Source: Candidatus Planktophila sp.
GTDB taxonomy: Bacteria > Actinomycetota > Actinomycetes > Nanopelagicales > Nanopelagicaceae
Assembly: GCA_030649935.1 (NCBI GenBank)
Contig: JAUSFN010000036.1
Location: 62,001 to 126,000 of the forward strand
Length of the DNA stretch: 64,000 nt
Reading direction: 5' to 3'
Below, in pieces: positions 20,387 to 48,348 of the stretch. The notes beneath the pieces are model-generated. The model saw only the letters and a list, made by a program, of their open reading frames with translations, had not been told where the DNA came from and made no database searches. The position numbers and the translations under genes are program-made. Every line of letters begins with the position of its first letter. Position 1 is the stretch's first letter.

Positions 20387-21475
20387 AGATTTCCTTCGCT
20401 TGATTAATTTTTCAGCGATCTCACACAGTACTAATGCGCTGGCAGAGTTCGGATCAGAAATGACTACAGGCACACCTGCATCACCGCCTAAACGAAGATC
20501 GACACTAAATGGAATCTTTCCGAGAAGTGCGACCTCACTGCCAATTAATTGAGATAAACGCTGTGCGGTTTCTTCTCCGCCGCCAGTTCCAAAGAGCGAA
20601 ATTAATGCACCAGTTGCTGGATCAACATAGTCAGACATGTTCTCCACTACTCCAACCACGTGTTGATGAATCTGATGGGCGATTCTTCCGGCACGTTCTG
20701 CAACTTCAGCTGCTGCAACTTGAGGAGTGGTAACTACTAATATCTCTGAGGTTGGAATTAACTGACCTAGCGAGATAGGCAAATCACCTGTTCCAGGTGG
20801 GAGATCAATAAGCAAAAGATCTAAATCGCCCCAATATGCATCCGAGAGAAGTTGCTCTAAAACTCTGTGCAAAAGCGGTCCTCTATATGCGACGGCATCA
20901 CTGCGTTCAGGCTTAAACATCTCCATGGAAACGCACTTCACCCCGAAAGATTCAAGTGGAATGAACATCTGGTCAATCGCAGTTGGGCGTTGACCCATCA
21001 ACCCCATTAATCTGGGAATCGAGTGGCCATACACGTCGGCATCTAAGATTCCAACACGCAATCCTTTCATGGCCGAGGCGACGGCTAGATTAACGGTCAC
21101 CGAGGATTTTCCAACGCCTCCTTTTCCCGAAGCGATACCGATTACTCGTGTTAACGAATCTGGTTGCGCAAATGGAATAAATTTTTCGCGTCCATTGCGC
21201 ATGATTTTCTTTACGTTATCACGTTGGGCTTGTGACATGACTCCAAACGTCAAATGTACGCTCTTAACTCCATCAATATTAGCAACTGCACTTGTTATAT
21301 CTGTACGCAATCTGTCCTGCATAGGGCAGCCCGAAATTGTCAATAAAATCGAAACCGAAACATTCCCATCTAACTCATTAACGTCCTCGACCATTCCAAG
21401 ATCGGTTATAGACCTATGAAGTTCTGGATCTTGTACAACCATTAACGCTTCTGCAATCTGATCTAATAGGTTCAT
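20354..21475 (-). CDS. Mrp/ApbC iron-sulfur carrier ATPase
   Basis: Protein of 373 residues. The N-terminal MIP18-like domain (1-100) has LLTISGCPMQDRL. The P-loop ATPase is SGKGGVGKSSVTVNLA, with ILDADVYGHSIPRL and LLIDLPPGTGD. The CxxC pair seen in many Mrp proteins is not present in the C-terminal region (VENMSDYVDPATG), so cluster binding may differ. It probably transfers Fe-S clusters to targets such as NarH, WhiB or ferredoxin. The ATG at 21475 follows the tatB coding region with a four-base overlap. Confidence 0.9.
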   Translation of the reverse strand: MNLLDQIAEALMVVQDPELHRSITDLGMVEDVNELDGNVSVSILLTISGCPMQDRLRTDITSAVANIDGVKSVHLTFGVMSQAQRDNVKKIMRNGREKFIPFAQPDSLTRVIGIASGKGGVGKSSVTVNLAVASAMKGLRVGILDADVYGHSIPRLMGLMGQRPTAIDQMFIPLESFGVKCVSMEMFKPERSDAVAYRGPLLHRVLEQLLSDAYWGDLDLLLIDLPPGTGDLPISLGQLIPTSEILVVTTPQVAAAEVAERAGRIAHQIHQHVVGVVENMSDYVDPATGALISLFGTGGGEETAQRLSQLIGSEVALLGKIPFSVDLRLGGDAGVPVVISDPNSASALVLCEIAEKLIKRRKSLLGVRLGIAT

Positions 21476-21777
21476 ATAAGATCTGGATCTATTCGCGCCT
21501 CAGGACGTTTAGTCTTAGCCACTGGCTTTTCATCCATGAGATCAGCCAGCTGTTTTTTAACAAAAGTTTTTGGGTGTAAGTCTTTCGGTTGCAAATTTTC
21601 AAACCCAGGTCCTAAATTCTCTTTAAGTTCTGCTGTTGCTACCTGCGAAAGATTACGAAGTTTCTTGAGCATATTAGCCGCTTCGACTGCAACTTTTGGC
21701 AGCCGTTCCGGGCCAACTAATATCATCGCCAAAATTGCAAGACCCATGAGTTCTCCAGCACCAATATCAAAGAACAT
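21472..21777 (-). CDS. tatB: Twin-arginine translocase subunit TatB
   Basis: Protein of 101 residues. The N-terminal membrane helix MFFDIGAGELMGLAILAMIL is followed by the VGPERLPKVA hinge and an amphipathic helix. Most family members are longer, but the N-terminus is typical. It recognises folded Tat substrates with TatC. The htrA-tatB-mrp order is conserved in actinobacteria. Confidence 0.9.
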   Translation of the reverse strand: MFFDIGAGELMGLAILAMILVGPERLPKVAVEAANMLKKLRNLSQVATAELKENLGPGFENLQPKDLHPKTFVKKQLADLMDEKPVAKTKRPEARIDPDLI

Positions 21778-21783
21778 GCCTGT

Positions 21784-21789
21784 AGCCTA
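21784..21789 (-). promoter_or_regulatory. Leaderless-type -10 of tatB
   Basis: TAGGCT on the minus strand ends six bases before the tatB ATG. It lies in the 27-base gap after htrA, so tatB-mrp can be transcribed separately from htrA. Confidence 0.55.
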
Positions 21790-43040: not shown

Positions 43041-44491
43041 TGGAGACCTCAATGAAATTTGACTATGCGCCCGCACCCGAATCGCGCTCCATTGTCTCGA
43101 TTAAGCCCAAATATGGCCATTTTATCGATGGAAAGTTCGTTGCAGGTCGCAAACACTTCCCGGCAATTAATCCAGCAACTGAAGAGATTCTGAGCCAGAT
43201 TGCCCTAGCCGGTGTGGCCGAGGTCGATGCTGCGGTAAAAGCGGCGCGCAAGGCGTACACGATTACATGGTCAAAAATGAGCGGGCGAGAGCGAGGTAAG
43301 TACTTATTTCGCATTGCTCGGATTATGCAGGAGCGCTCTCGAGAGTTTGCAGTTCTGGAAACTTTAGATAATGGAAAACCAATTCGTGAATCGCGTGACG
43401 TTGATATTCCATTAGCCGCGGCACATTTTTTCTATCACGCTGGGTGGGCGGACAAATTAGAGTATGCAGGTCTTGGAACTTCAACTAAGCCACATGGTGT
43501 TGCAGGACAAATCATTCCCTGGAACTTTCCATTATTAATGCTCGCGTGGAAAGTTGCGCCAGCACTAGCCACCGGTAACACAGTCGTTCTGAAGCCTGCC
43601 GAAAATACTTCGCTAACCGCTCTTTTATTTGCAGAAGTTTGCCAGCAGGCAGAGCTTCCTGCAGGTGTGGTAAATATCGTTACTGGTAATGGATCAACTG
43701 GCGCATTAATTGTTAACCATCCGGGTATCGATAAAATAGCATTTACAGGATCAACTGAAGTTGGCAAGATTATTGCCCGTGCAGTTGCCCCAACTCAAAA
43801 GAGTGTAACGCTCGAACTGGGCGGCAAAGCCGCAAACATAATTTTTGAAGATGCCGCAATTGACGAAGCCATCGAAGGCATCGTCAATGGAGTGTTCTTC
43901 AATCAAGGCCATGTCTGTTGCGCTGGCTCTCGACTAATTCTGCAAGAGAGCGTCGCCGACGAAGTAATAGAAAAACTTAAGAGGCGCATGGGCTTGATTC
44001 GAGTTGGTGATCCAATGGATAAAAATACTGACTTAGGTGCAATCAATAGCAAAGAACAGCTCCTTAAAATACGTGAGCTCTCGGCAACAGGTGACACTGA
44101 GGGTGCGCAGCGTTGGAGTGCTCCATGTGATTTACCGAAGAAGGGTTTTTGGTTTGCGCCAACGATTTTTACTGGCGTTACACAAGCGCACCGCATCGCG
44201 CGGGAAGAGATATTTGGACCAGTGCTCTCGGTTCTTACCTTTAGAACTCCTCAAGAGGCCATAGATAAGGCTAATAACACGCCTTTTGGCCTCTCTGCTG
44301 GAATTTGGAGCGAGAAAGGCTCTCGTATTTTGTGGGCTAGTCAGCAACTTCGTGCAGGTGTTATCTGGTCAAATACGTTTAATAAATTTGATCCAACATC
44401 TCCCTTTGGTGGATACAAGGAGTCTGGCTGGGGTCGAGAAGGTGGACGACATGGGTTAAGTGCATATTTGAAGGGGGTTGGCCATGAGTAA
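43040..44491 (+). CDS. NAD-dependent aldehyde dehydrogenase
   Basis: ALDH of 483 residues with the catalytic asparagine in IIPWNFPLL, the NAD lysine in VVLKPAENT, GSTEVGK, the general base in TLELGGKAANI and the nucleophile in QGHVCCAGSR. The second half is complete (EEIFGPVLS, NTPFGLSAGIW). The ATG shares a base with the deoC stop. By context it oxidises acetaldehyde from DeoC to acetate. It is followed by a half-ALDH gene that may be its subunit. Confidence 0.88.
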   Translation: METSMKFDYAPAPESRSIVSIKPKYGHFIDGKFVAGRKHFPAINPATEEILSQIALAGVAEVDAAVKAARKAYTITWSKMSGRERGKYLFRIARIMQERSREFAVLETLDNGKPIRESRDVDIPLAAAHFFYHAGWADKLEYAGLGTSTKPHGVAGQIIPWNFPLLMLAWKVAPALATGNTVVLKPAENTSLTALLFAEVCQQAELPAGVVNIVTGNGSTGALIVNHPGIDKIAFTGSTEVGKIIARAVAPTQKSVTLELGGKAANIIFEDAAIDEAIEGIVNGVFFNQGHVCCAGSRLILQESVADEVIEKLKRRMGLIRVGDPMDKNTDLGAINSKEQLLKIRELSATGDTEGAQRWSAPCDLPKKGFWFAPTIFTGVTQAHRIAREEIFGPVLSVLTFRTPQEAIDKANNTPFGLSAGIWSEKGSRILWASQQLRAGVIWSNTFNKFDPTSPFGGYKESGWGREGGRHGLSAYLKGVGHE

Positions 44492-45326
44492 TCGAATCGA
44501 TGTCAAAAAAACATATAAGTTATACATCAACGGTGCATTTCCCCGCTCTGAATCTGGCCGCACATATGAAATTAAAGATGCGAAGGGCGTATTTATCGCT
44601 AATCCATGTCTGGCTTCTCGGAAGGATTTAAAGGATGCAGTAGTGGCAGCGCGTGCCGCTCAGCCTGGTTGGAATAAAGCTTCTGCTTACAACAAGGGAC
44701 AGATTCTCTATCGCATCGCGGAGATGCTAGAGGGTAGGCGCACTCAGTTTGTGCAAGAGATTGTTTCAGTTACTGGCATCACTAAAGTCAAGGCCGAAAA
44801 GGAGGTCACAGAATCTGTAGATCGTATAGTCTGGTATGCAGGTTGGAGCGATAAACTTTCATCTCTTTCAGGTGCCCTTAATCCAGTTGCGGGTCCTTAC
44901 TATAACTTTACGGTGCCGGAGAGCATGGGAGTTATCGCCGCTATCGCACCAGAATCCCCCTCCTTACTTGGGCTCATAGATGCGATTGCACCTGTAATCG
45001 TTGGTGGAAATACTGTGATTGTTTTGGCTAGCACTAAAGCGCCACTGTCTGCAATGAGTTTTGCAGAGGTAGTCGCCACAAGCGATGTCCCGGCTGGTGT
45101 AATCAATATATTGACGGGTAAGAAGGATGAGATTGCACCGTGGATGGCATCTCATATGGATATCGATGGTCTTGATATTTCAGGTCTCGGAGCTAAATCA
45201 CATGGAGCGGTTCGAAGCGCTGGGGCTGAAAATTTGAAGCGAATCTACAGTTTCAACTCCGCCGATCCTAGTCGAATCCTTGCTTTCTTAGAACACAAGA
45301 CTGTCTGGCACCCGATAGGGCTCTAA
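44484..45326 (+). CDS. Catalytically dead half aldehyde dehydrogenase
   Basis: Protein of 280 residues aligned with the N-terminal NAD domain of ALDH (KLYINGAFPRSESGRTYEI, GAFP, ASRKDLKDAVVAARAAQPGW). Key residues are gone: the PWNFP motif reads APESPSL, the NAD lysine (LKPAE) reads VLAST, and the catalytic cysteine domain is missing. No frameshift or stop is visible, so it is not a fresh pseudogene. The start overlaps the preceding ALDH by eight bases, so the two are coupled. It may be a structural partner of the active enzyme or of DeoC. Confidence 0.75.
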   Translation: MSNRIDVKKTYKLYINGAFPRSESGRTYEIKDAKGVFIANPCLASRKDLKDAVVAARAAQPGWNKASAYNKGQILYRIAEMLEGRRTQFVQEIVSVTGITKVKAEKEVTESVDRIVWYAGWSDKLSSLSGALNPVAGPYYNFTVPESMGVIAAIAPESPSLLGLIDAIAPVIVGGNTVIVLASTKAPLSAMSFAEVVATSDVPAGVINILTGKKDEIAPWMASHMDIDGLDISGLGAKSHGAVRSAGAENLKRIYSFNSADPSRILAFLEHKTVWHPIGL

Positions 45327-46276
45327 GACCAGCCTTTATCAATGGTTTTTAGCCACAATTGCCGCACGCTCTCAACATCTAGGTCCATCACAACTCGAAC
45401 TTTTGCTGAATCTTCCAAAGCAAGCGGTTCGAGATCTTTTAAAAATGCAGCGCGACGATCACAAATTGTCTGACCCCTCGCAGGACCAGATGACGTATCT
45501 ACGACGACATCAAACATCTCGGTAGTAAATAGTTCAGGGTGAATAACCGTAGCGACAGCACCGAAATCTCCCAAAGTAATTGGAGAGATATGCAATCGCT
45601 CAATGAAAGCTTCGATGAGAGAACCGGCGAACTTCGCAGCTGGAATTGTTGAGTTTTTTAAGCGAATGGCCTCTGCACTGGTAATTCCAGGACGCATAAA
45701 CACATCAAGGCCATACATTGTGATTGGGACTCCGCTTTGAAAGACTATTGCTGCAGCTTCAGGGTCATGCCAAATGTTAAATTCAGATGCCGCCGTTGCG
45801 TTGCCTGCCGATGCCGATCCACCCATCAAAACAATTCGATGAATTTTTTTTGCACTCTCTGGAAATGCGCGTAAGAAAAGTGCGATATTTGTCAGTGGTG
45901 CAACTGGCACCAAAGTTACTGGATCTTTAGACGCTTCAACTAAATCGCGAAGTAACTCAATGGCTGATCGAGGATCAACGCGGCGACTCGATGGAGCAAT
46001 TCCAAGATCACCCATACCGTCTGCACCATGTATATACTCGGCATACTGAGAAATCCCAAGCAATGGCCGAACCGCTCCTCGCGCAACTGGAATATCACCA
46101 GCGCCTGCGGCATCTAAAACCTTCAAAGTATTAGCAACAACTTGATCAACGTTTGTATTGCCATCAACGCAAGTGATTCCTAAGAGATTTATCTGCGGAT
46201 GAAGAGCTGCAAAGAGAACTGCAAAGGCGTCGTCGACACCAGTATCGACATCAAGAATAATTGAAGTTTTATTCAT
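45323..46276 (-). CDS. Ribonucleoside hydrolase (IUNH family)
   Basis: Protein of 317 residues beginning MNKTSIILDVDTGVDDAFAV, the DxDxGxDD calcium motif. LVPVAPLTNIALFL and MGGSASAGNATAASEFN are also typical. The late motif reads LGDFGAVATV, keeping the metal aspartate but without the histidine many members place before it. It cleaves nucleosides to base and ribose, which the divergent ribokinase can phosphorylate. The gene starts at a leaderless-type promoter and ends overlapping the half-ALDH gene by four bases. Confidence 0.88.
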   Translation of the reverse strand: MNKTSIILDVDTGVDDAFAVLFAALHPQINLLGITCVDGNTNVDQVVANTLKVLDAAGAGDIPVARGAVRPLLGISQYAEYIHGADGMGDLGIAPSSRRVDPRSAIELLRDLVEASKDPVTLVPVAPLTNIALFLRAFPESAKKIHRIVLMGGSASAGNATAASEFNIWHDPEAAAIVFQSGVPITMYGLDVFMRPGITSAEAIRLKNSTIPAAKFAGSLIEAFIERLHISPITLGDFGAVATVIHPELFTTEMFDVVVDTSSGPARGQTICDRRAAFLKDLEPLALEDSAKVRVVMDLDVESVRQLWLKTIDKGWS

Positions 46277-46282
46277 AAGGGG

Positions 46283-46289
46283 TAGCCTA
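46283..46289. promoter_or_regulatory. Symmetric TAGCCTA: shared -10 of nucleoside hydrolase and ribokinase
   Basis: In an 18-base divergent gap, TAGCCT (46283-46288) ends six bases before the ribokinase ATG and its mirror TAGGCT (46284-46289) ends seven bases before the hydrolase ATG. Both genes use the same seven base pairs and no Shine-Dalgarno. Confidence 0.6.
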
Positions 46290-46294
46290 GCGCT

Positions 46295-47191
46295 ATGAGT
46301 AAAGCAGTAGTCGCAGTCGTTGGAAGCGCCATGATGGATTTAACGGCATATGCGCCAGTTTTACCACAACCCGGAGAGACACTCGTCGGTGATCTCTTCT
46401 CTACTGGATTTGGGGGAAAAGGGGCTAACCAAGCCGTAATTGCAGCACATTGCGGTGCCGAAGTTCACTTCATTGGAAAATTAGGCCGCGATCTTTTTGG
46501 CGACTCTATTGCAACAAACTTTTCAACGCTTGGTATTAACTCTTATTATTTAGAGCGGACAGATACTCCTACTGGTGTTGCGCATATTTGGGTGGATGGC
46601 GCTGGTGAAAATAGAATTGTCATTATCCCAGGAGCTAATCATGAAATTGAGAGTTCCAAGGCAGTAGCTGCAATCGAATCTATAGAGGATTTGGCGGTTG
46701 TAATTGCTCAATGTGAAATAAGGCAAGGGGTTTCACTCGCAACTTTTAGAGCAGCGAAAGCTCGCGGAAGTATAACTATTTTAAATCCTGCACCATATCA
46801 AGAACTTACACAGGAGTTTCTTGAACTGTGCGACTGGATAATCCCAAATGAGACAGAGTTTCGGGAGCTACATGGGCAACTTCCAACTAGTGATGAGATT
46901 CTAAGAGAATTTAGACCGGGTAAGAATTCAGTAGTCACTCTTGGCTCTCTAGGTGCTGCATTAATCAATGCAGATGGTTCAATTATTCGAACCTCGGCCC
47001 CAATCGTTAATGCAGTAGATACAACAGGTGCTGGAGATGCCTTTGTCGGAACATTTGCATATGCCTTGGCAAGTGGATTGAGTTCTGATAAGGCACTTGC
47101 ACTTGGTATCAAAGTCGCATCCTTGAGTGTTACTAAAAAAGGCGCTCAATCTTCATATCCAACTCAAGCAGAAATCTCTACACTCTCGTAA
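46295..47191 (+). CDS. rbsK: Ribokinase (PfkB family)
   Basis: Sugar kinase of 298 residues. It has the N-terminal GGKGANQAVIAA and the C-terminal anion hole with catalytic aspartate DTTGAGDAFVGTF, plus KKGAQSSYP near the end, which favours ribokinase over other PfkB kinases. It converts ribose to ribose-5-phosphate. Divergent from the nucleoside hydrolase with a shared promoter. It overlaps the convergent P450 gene by 28 bases. Confidence 0.85.
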   Translation: MSKAVVAVVGSAMMDLTAYAPVLPQPGETLVGDLFSTGFGGKGANQAVIAAHCGAEVHFIGKLGRDLFGDSIATNFSTLGINSYYLERTDTPTGVAHIWVDGAGENRIVIIPGANHEIESSKAVAAIESIEDLAVVIAQCEIRQGVSLATFRAAKARGSITILNPAPYQELTQEFLELCDWIIPNETEFRELHGQLPTSDEILREFRPGKNSVVTLGSLGAALINADGSIIRTSAPIVNAVDTTGAGDAFVGTFAYALASGLSSDKALALGIKVASLSVTKKGAQSSYPTQAEISTLS

Positions 47192-48348
47192 CCTCGCAAG
47201 ACAAATGTTGGCCTGCGCACTGGCTCACTTGCAAGTGACATATTTGGATATTTCTCCCACAGCGCGGGTAATGAAACTCCCATTTCCAAGCGCGCAAGTG
47301 GAGCACCTAAACAAAAATGAATTCCAGCGCCAAAGCCAATGTGTGGATTTGGATCTCGAGTTACATCCATCTCATCAGCGTTTTCAAAAACGGTGCTATC
47401 TCTATTAGCAGAACCAATAAGAGCGGCAATCTTTTGACCCGCTTTAATTGTAACTCCACTAAGTTCAGTATCTTTCGTCGCCGTTCGTTCAAAAAGCTGT
47501 AGTGGTGCATCAAAGCGCATGAACTCCTCTAGAGCCATCTCTGTAAGGCCTCTAGGGTTATTTCGAAGAAGTTCGCTTTGGTCTGATCGACGCAGAACTT
47601 CAACCATTCCGTTACCAAAAGCATTAACACTCGCCTCATGACCGGCGTTGAGTAACAAAACAGCGGTCGCGACAAGTTCGTGCATGTTTAACTTCTCCCC
47701 GTTTTCTTCAACAATGGCTAAATCTGTAATTAAATCAGTTCCCGGTTTCCTTTTTCGCTCCTCAGCCAGGGTTCGCACATATTCGGCAAACTCACCTGCG
47801 GCCACCTTGGCATTACTTTGATACTGCAATGAAGGATTAACTTCATACATTTTAACGATAGCTTGCGACCATGGGCGCAGTAGGTGCTCTTCAGATTTTG
47901 GAAAGCCCAATAAGTCGGCGATAATTTTAACGGGAAGAGGTTCAGCAAAATCAGCGATCAGGTCGAAGTTCTCACCGCTTTTAACTTTCACATCAATTGC
48001 ATCTAGAAGTTCATTGGTGATTCGCTCAATTGCCGGACGCATCCCTTCAATCTTGTTTCGATTAAAAGCCTTTGCCACTAAAGCACGAAGACGTGTGTGC
48101 TTTGGTGGCTCACTATCTAGAATCGAATCTGAGTGGAGCCAGTTAAACGTCTCCCATTCGAACTCAGGCTGCTTATCTACAAAAATACGTCCTAAAGATT
48201 TATTGCGAAAGACCTCATTTGCATCACGGTGGCAAGCTGCTAAAAATATTCCCAAACCTTCATGCCATACTGGTTTACCTTCGTTTCGTAACTCCTTTAA
48301 CCCAGCATATGGATCTGCTATAAATGCCGGATCATGAAAATCGACCAT
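47164..48348 (-). CDS. Cytochrome P450 in the nucleoside operon
   Basis: Protein of 394 residues. The heme loop GFGAGIHFCLGAPLARLEM carries the thiolate cysteine. The I-helix is LLNAGHEASVNAFGNG, where most P450s have (A/G)Gx(E/D)T, so the threonine is replaced by serine one position later. The K-helix ExxR is EEFMR. The ATG overlaps the adenosine deaminase stop by one base (TAATG). No ferredoxin or reductase is adjacent, so redox partners are elsewhere (fdxA at 10912-11232 is one candidate). Substrate unknown. The location suggests a nucleoside- or base-derived substrate, but this is inference. Confidence 0.9.
   Translation of the reverse strand: MVDFHDPAFIADPYAGLKELRNEGKPVWHEGLGIFLAACHRDANEVFRNKSLGRIFVDKQPEFEWETFNWLHSDSILDSEPPKHTRLRALVAKAFNRNKIEGMRPAIERITNELLDAIDVKVKSGENFDLIADFAEPLPVKIIADLLGFPKSEEHLLRPWSQAIVKMYEVNPSLQYQSNAKVAAGEFAEYVRTLAEERKRKPGTDLITDLAIVEENGEKLNMHELVATAVLLLNAGHEASVNAFGNGMVEVLRRSDQSELLRNNPRGLTEMALEEFMRFDAPLQLFERTATKDTELSGVTIKAGQKIAALIGSANRDSTVFENADEMDVTRDPNPHIGFGAGIHFCLGAPLARLEMGVSLPALWEKYPNMSLASEPVRRPTFVLRGYESVEISA

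Follow-up and report, generated by a model that had tools for sequence, protein, structure and literature searches.

The genes for a nucleoside hydrolase (nh) and a ribokinase (rk) are divergent, and the 18-base region between them is very likely a housekeeping-sigma promoter that is both bidirectional and doubly leaderless. It belongs to the kind of bidirectional promoter known from the work of Warman, Grainger and colleagues. The region was analysed in a window of 64,000 bases, the whole stretch of DNA under study, which corresponds to C14:62001-126000 within a 1.82-Mb assembly (G000). Sequence and comparison between relatives support the promoter core and the register in which it lies, the extension of the -10 on each strand, and the conservation of these features. 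The features are listed below.

45323-46276, minus strand: nucleoside hydrolase (nh), 317 aa, ATG start; PF01156, E 1.3e-83
46295-47191, plus strand: ribokinase (rk), 298 aa, ATG start; PF00294 (PfkB), E 9.5e-65
46277-46294, no strand: divergent spacer; identical geometry in 41 representatives, the window counted among them
46283-46288, plus strand: TAGCCT, -10 of rk, 6 nt before the ATG; T, A and T invariant in 41/41
46284-46289, minus strand: TAGGCT, -10 of nh, 7 nt before the ATG; T/A positions invariant in 41/41
46280-46282, plus strand: GGG, SRN extension of the rk -10; SRN in 41/41, CGN in 31/41
46290-46292, minus strand: CGC, CGN extension of the nh -10; SRN in 40/41, CGN in 37/41
46276, minus strand: predicted nh transcription start (A of ATG); T before the ATG in 40/41
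46295, plus strand: predicted rk transcription start (A of ATG); pyrimidine before the start in 38/41
46261-46270, plus strand: TTGAAGTTTT, probable rk -35 region (TTGAAG), inside nh codons 3-6

Genes and genomic context

The whole intergenic region of nh and rk is AAGGGGTAGCCTAGCGCT (46277-46294, 18 bases). Both ATGs are the earliest ATG, GTG or TTG in their respective ORFs. In the rk frame, the TAG of the -10 forms a stop codon, and three codons separate it from the rk ATG. The best NCBIfam match of nh was RihC, with 246 bits (under the cut-off of 382), and that of rk was D-ribokinase (D_ribokin_bact TIGR02152, E 2.9e-85), with 286 bits, just under the cut-off of 299.65. Convergent neighbours overlap the 3' end of each gene, 44484-45326 (plus strand) with nh and 47164-48348 (minus strand) with rk, so nh and rk are probably each transcribed alone.

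Genes for adenosine deaminase, thymidine phosphorylase, cytidine deaminase, deoxyribose-phosphate aldolase and a PnrA-like ABC transporter were found near the pair, whose surroundings are a nucleoside salvage region. The 22 listed representatives that span 15 kb or more, the window among them, all have deoC, a short aldehyde dehydrogenase (ALDH) homologue, P450, add and deoA around the pair. The ALDH homologue, encoded at 44484-45326 on the plus strand, has 280 aa and covers just positions 8-232 of the 461-position Pfam model. It aligned over its full length in 22/22 long representatives, and is therefore a conserved short form and not a recent truncation. Relatives of the window's group include Candidatus Planktophila (L003) and IMCC19121 (L006), which we take to be freshwater acI types; the latter, a cultured strain, carries CATAAGCGATAGCCTAGCGGTATG.

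Loci and genomes compared

A total of 108 loci were searched, including the window and its own copy L078, and 67 of them possess a divergent nh/rk pair, duplicates included. Among the 41 loci without a pair, contig ends truncate L025, L077 and L088, which still show the identical 18-base geometry; L046 and L064 are cut as well. A relative of rk (45-59%) without an nh match of at least 45% was present in L033, L037-L042, L044, L045 and L047, and the other loci without a pair are more distant. From the 67 pairs, L048 (662-base gap) and L036 (28-base gap) were left out, and the rest were reduced to 42 representatives with rk DNA less than 97% identical, which were compared ungapped. Removal of L031 (75-base gap) left 41 representatives. 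All conservation of the nh/rk promoter was measured within one genus-level group.

Genus-wide statistics come from four sampled genomes (G000, G014, G082 and G015), whose genes were called by a simple script of our own. Locus L133 duplicates part of L115; it was excluded from the counts of hexamers, TTGA spacings, divergent pairs and pyrimidine starts, and counted in the TANNNT offset profile and the SRN/CGN background. L022 was left out of the nh tree for its length.

A -10 element read on both strands

As the initial annotation had proposed, TAGCCTA in the spacer can be read as a -10 from either strand, each time as TANNNT, and the two ATGs are 6 and 7 nt away. The two hexamers have 5 bp in common. 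TANNNTA is kept in all 41 representatives with the 18-base geometry, and exact TAGCCTA in 38 of them; the T, A, C, C, T and A of TA[G/C]CCTA are invariant. The mean agreement between representatives at fourfold sites is 0.384 in nh and 0.381 in rk, and TANNNTA occurs 74 times in the 64,000 bases (0.0012 per position). Judged from sequence, the symmetric element is not due to chance, since its core is kept in 41/41 against about 0.38 at fourfold sites.

A46284 and T46288 are common to both hexamers, reciprocally paired and invariant (41/41), as in a symmetric -10. T46283 is part of the rk hexamer only, and A46289 of the nh hexamer only. Both are likewise invariant in 41/41; therefore both directions appear to be under selection, and these two bases are the best sequence evidence for the use of both. 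Alternatively, the site might be used in one direction only, the other gene then having its promoter within the partner gene and the symmetry being incidental. Starts inside coding DNA are common, reaching 53% in one Salmonella map (PMC10268837), and L168 has a short divergent spacer of 17 bases with TANNNT on one strand only, the other strand being without the first T, so that short spacing alone is no proof of two-way use. Nevertheless, the invariance of T46283 and A46289, each of which serves one gene only, and the SRN extensions preserved on both strands in 40/41 speak against use in one direction, which we consider quite unlikely.

Searches with the bare pattern CAT-N6-TANNNTA-N5-ATG detected six sites in the window's own genome versus one for the reversed control. 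Four of the six have a plus-strand ORF of merely 1-8 residues and are probably due to chance or one-sided, which would suit one-way use; long divergent ORFs on both sides were seen only for the sites in C14 (nh/rk) and C3 (L128). Over 91 genomes of the genus, 154 matches were obtained versus 94 for the reversed control, a modest excess in which one-sided sites are included. A wider-gap pattern gave little excess in the own genome (22 sites, palindromic ones counted on both strands, versus 17 in the control). These counts are weaker evidence for the bidirectional promoter than the conservation in 41 representatives.

Leaderless starts and extended -10

TANNNT peaks 6 and 7 nt upstream of start codons in the genes sampled from four genomes. 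The rates per divergent gene at 6 and 7 nt were 0.27 and 0.15 in G000, 0.28 and 0.10 in G014, 0.27 and 0.14 in G082, and 0.16 and 0.08 in G015. For G000 the rate was 0.07 at 8 nt, 0.04 at 9 nt and at most 0.03 elsewhere within offsets 0-29, and across the four genomes the remaining offsets mostly gave 0-0.03. A pyrimidine just before the start was present in 175 out of 226 starts with TANNNT at 6-7 nt, versus 430 out of 921 other starts, as transcription from the start codon itself would predict. The commonest -10-like hexamers among the 226 were TAGGCT (24) and TAGACT (22), and TAGCCT was found 8 times. Published actinobacterial leaderless promoters agree with this pattern of the genus (PMC3160421, PMC3898074). 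A scan of 45900-46700 with the E. coli-type sigma-70 consensus detected two sites, neither of them in the spacer; the genus uses TANNNT.

Like leaderless promoters, nh/rk carries TANNNT some 6-7 nt ahead of each start codon, and no Shine-Dalgarno sequence was seen by eye between the -10 and either ATG; G46280 of the GGGG run is G in only 7/41. The predicted starts of nh and rk are 19 bp apart. The earlier suggestion that both genes have leaderless starts is supported by sequence and comparison, the exact starts being predictions.

In M. tuberculosis, SRN (often CGN) precedes TANNNT in about half of the TANNNT promoters (PMC3898074). The GGG and CGC of the window both correspond to SRN, as in actinobacterial leaderless promoters, and in 40/41 representatives the flanks of the core form a two-fold symmetric actinobacterial extended -10, SRN-TANNNTA-NYS. 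The background for any TANNNT in the sampled DNA is 0.228 for SRN and 0.046 for CGN. SRN precedes the -10 in 86 of the 226 leaderless-like starts and CGN in 26; the extension is favoured, yet not general among them.

The palindrome could also be read as an operator for a nucleoside or ribose regulator, overlapping the promoter, given that its arms reach 5-7 pairs in 13/41 representatives. However, longer arms are expected where two SRN/CGN extensions face each other, so no operator is needed to account for them. A conserved dyad with extended arms, as in an operator, was not found: the arms have 3 pairs in 25/41 (window included) and 0 in the 3 representatives with TACCCTA. The only other TAGCCTA/TAGGCTA within the window, at 21783-21789, fits a plain -10: on the minus strand it gives TAGGCT, and the ATG of the minus-strand ORF 21472-21777 follows after 6 nt. 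With arms of 3 pairs or none in 28/41, and the longer ones attributable to doubled SRN/CGN, the operator was discarded as a candidate and is highly improbable.

At another locus, L129 4273-4296 (G000:C24:45273), the palindrome AGCATATATGCT lies directly 5' of a 77-residue ORF. By eye, this ORF resembles a helix-turn-helix regulator. The palindrome recurs in several relatives and may be a self-regulating operator.

A probable -35 of rk inside nh

The initial annotation described a single element. This holds for the one symmetric -10 but is incomplete, as rk has a probable -35 in the nh codons and an extended -10 of mycobacterial type is present on each side, so that the two directions would not be equivalent. 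The TTGAAG of TTGAAGTTTT sits 16 bp upstream of the rk -10 TAGCCT. In nh codons 4 and 5, agreement at the fourfold third position is 1.0 and 0.95, respectively (mean 0.38), the latter dropping to 0.91 once L031 is counted; only 2/150 fourfold sites of nh, and 0/113 of rk, reach 0.95. TGAAGTTTT was found in 40/41 representatives. From its position and conservation, the TTGAAGTTTT tract is likely the -35 of rk. On the rk side, the column profile of the 41 representatives showed no comparable invariant tract; rk codon 4 has an agreement of 0.80 (n = 28), and there may be a weaker signal on this side.

Leaderless translation may depend on early codons, and TTGAAGTTTT could instead be a signal on the coding side that serves translation of nh from its leaderless mRNA. 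Early codons are also somewhat more conserved in general: codons 2-8 of the region's other genes (rk included), used as control, have a mean agreement of 0.46 versus 0.38, with 1/34 fourfold sites at 0.95 or more. However, the matching rk codons are without such invariance, and the tract is missing in L185-L190, where the rk -10 has moved though nh keeps TANNNT at 6 nt. Moreover, where exact TTGA precedes a leaderless-like -10, the distance is most often 16 bp (6/226), in a genus where TTGA is rare. A translation signal is therefore a rather unlikely explanation, although one of some weight. The tract was absent in the 8 examined divergent pairs with 23-, 28- or 75-base gaps.

Other registers and other divergent pairs

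In L185-L190, nh and rk are still divergent, with a 23-base gap. The TANNNT of nh is found at 6 nt (TAGGCT in five loci, TAGAGT in L188), rk has TATTAT 7 nt away, and the two hexamers overlap by TA alone, which is the second of the known overlap registers. L031 and L036, with gaps of 75 and 28 bases, both lack the TTGAAGTTTT tract. L185-L190 form one clade in the nh tree (100/94), which joins L031 and L036 (99/100), the branch of L036 being very long. The 18-base rows require two changes in this tree, and one in 56% of bootstraps. The register change may represent one event, its direction not being fixed, and the tract absences may represent one or two events.

Among 118 divergent pairs of the four sampled genomes, no spacer shorter than 17 bases was found; three further pairs were called as overlapping, probably due to start errors. 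Twenty-seven pairs carry TANNNT at 5-9 nt on both sides. Overlapping hexamers were found in only two registers, -1 (TANNNTA) and +4 (ANNNTANNNT), with six pairs each, and in the remaining 15 pairs the hexamers do not overlap. Registers -1 and +4 are the overlays that need the fewest fixed bases, four bases defining both elements. The register counts are not all independent, as some pairs are orthologous and nh/rk is present in both G000 and G082, and not all leaderless, as an SD-like stretch lies ahead of one of the starts in L115, a +4 pair.

As a tentative and still doubtful extension, divergent spacing in this lineage could be quantised by the small number of registers that let two leaderless TANNNT elements be superposed (17-19 and 22-24 bases). 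The nh/rk spacer would then lie at the floor, with start codons, -10s, extensions and -35 merged, two-way use would fix the output ratio of the pathway, and the register would have changed between related clades.

Other pairs with this spacing were also observed. At L128 (4000-4023), an 18-base TANNNTA spacer separates divergent genes for a MobA-like NTP transferase and a metallophosphoesterase. Its TATCCTAG core was counted by eye at sites in at least 23 out of 91 genomes, among the matches listed. Two other genomes (L205, L207) possess an 18-base TANNNTA spacer between biotin ligase-like and carboxyltransferase-like genes, which were named by eye from translations alone and are probably functionally linked. 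These pairs have the 18-base TANNNTA spacer in common with nh/rk, but their genes and flanks differ. L206 was rejected as a further family, being one-sided with a plus-strand ORF of 3 residues. Within the window, the divergent starts 18592/18615, 26260/26291 and 31038/31075 have spacers of 22, 30 and 36 bases and -10-like hexamers at 6-9 nt on both sides; those of the 22-base spacer share TA only.

In three out of five genomes compared from other families (L200, L201 and L203 of L200-L204), each of the three from a different actinobacterial family, a PfkB-type kinase (36% identity) comes after nh, on the same strand. There, an operon may give co-expression of the two steps, and the divergent shared promoter may be the equivalent of this nh-kinase operon in the genus of the window.

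Comparison with known promoters

Bidirectional promoters are already known as a kind. Divergent initiation at symmetric -10s, mentioned in the initial annotation for other bacteria, has indeed been described by Warman, Grainger and colleagues in E. coli, Salmonella and other prokaryotes. The starts are mostly 18 bp apart, and also 10 and 23 bp, with slight variation (PMC12825309, PMC10268837); the distances of 18 and 23 bp match registers -1 and +4 found here. In E. coli, 24% of the bidirectional promoters are located between divergent genes, where they give rise to two mRNAs (PMC12825309). Similar to these promoters, nh/rk has one -10 read on both strands, in a register giving starts about 18 bp apart, and its spacer lies between divergent, functionally linked genes, as theirs often do. 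Unlike them, both nh/rk mRNAs are predicted to be leaderless, the promoter core is the entire intergenic region, a CGN/SRN extended -10 is present on both sides, the probable -35 lies in the partner's codons and the predicted start distance is 19. A T at -18 on both strands is usual and stimulatory, not defining (PMC10268837); at nh/rk, counted from starts at the two A's, the T is found at -19 on both sides instead of at -18.

Similar to the leaderless promoters of Actinobacteria (M. tuberculosis, PMC3898074; survey, PMC3160421), nh/rk has TANNNT with an SRN/CGN extension and a pyrimidine before the start, transcription is predicted to begin at the start codon, and a -35 is not general. In contrast to single promoters of that type, two are superposed at nh/rk. 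Closely juxtaposed divergent promoters are reported for M. tuberculosis, and the leaderless divergent pair prpD/Rv1129c is mentioned (PMC3898074); the excerpts of that paper describe no single shared -10 for divergent pairs. Among the titles and abstract openings listed from open-licence literature, no description was found of an nh/rk-type arrangement: a whole intergenic region made of one shared -10 and two extensions, two mRNAs predicted to be leaderless, and a probable -35 that constrains the codons of the neighbour.

Probable polymerase exclusion and proposed mechanism

We propose that both directions of the nh/rk promoter would be used in the cell. Each orientation of the polymerase would start at the A of one ATG, which would give a leaderless nh mRNA and a leaderless rk mRNA. 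The rk direction would be helped by the TTGAAG -35 buried in nh codons, and the nh direction would rely on TAGGCT, the favourite -10 of the genus, without a clearly conserved -35; the two could thus be tuned separately.

At bidirectional promoters, polymerases are unable to occupy both orientations together (PMC12825309). Mutual exclusion at nh/rk would follow from the geometry. The claim of the initial annotation that nh and rk compete over the site is unsupported as regards any effect on expression, and for basal activity the E. coli data speak against it: the activity of 5/5 tested bidirectional promoters was then too low for substantial competition, which appeared when one direction was strongly activated (PMC12825309). 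As E. coli promoters show little competition at basal activity, competition of nh and rk for one site is a possibility and not a result; it would matter at high occupancy only. The arrangement is likely of benefit in that it takes minimal DNA and lets two successive steps in the recovery of ribose be expressed together.

Under leaderless expression, the nh/rk spacer would be about the smallest divergent promoter possible. It may illustrate how intergenic regions shrink in compact genomes, the start codon supplying the initiating A and one -10 serving two genes, and how a promoter element would constrain the synonymous codons of a neighbouring gene. The 41 natural variants, together with the clade in another register, are ready test material. 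The pair would also be a clean case in which to ask whether polymerases that exclude each other at a common -10 link two enzymes acting in the same pathway.
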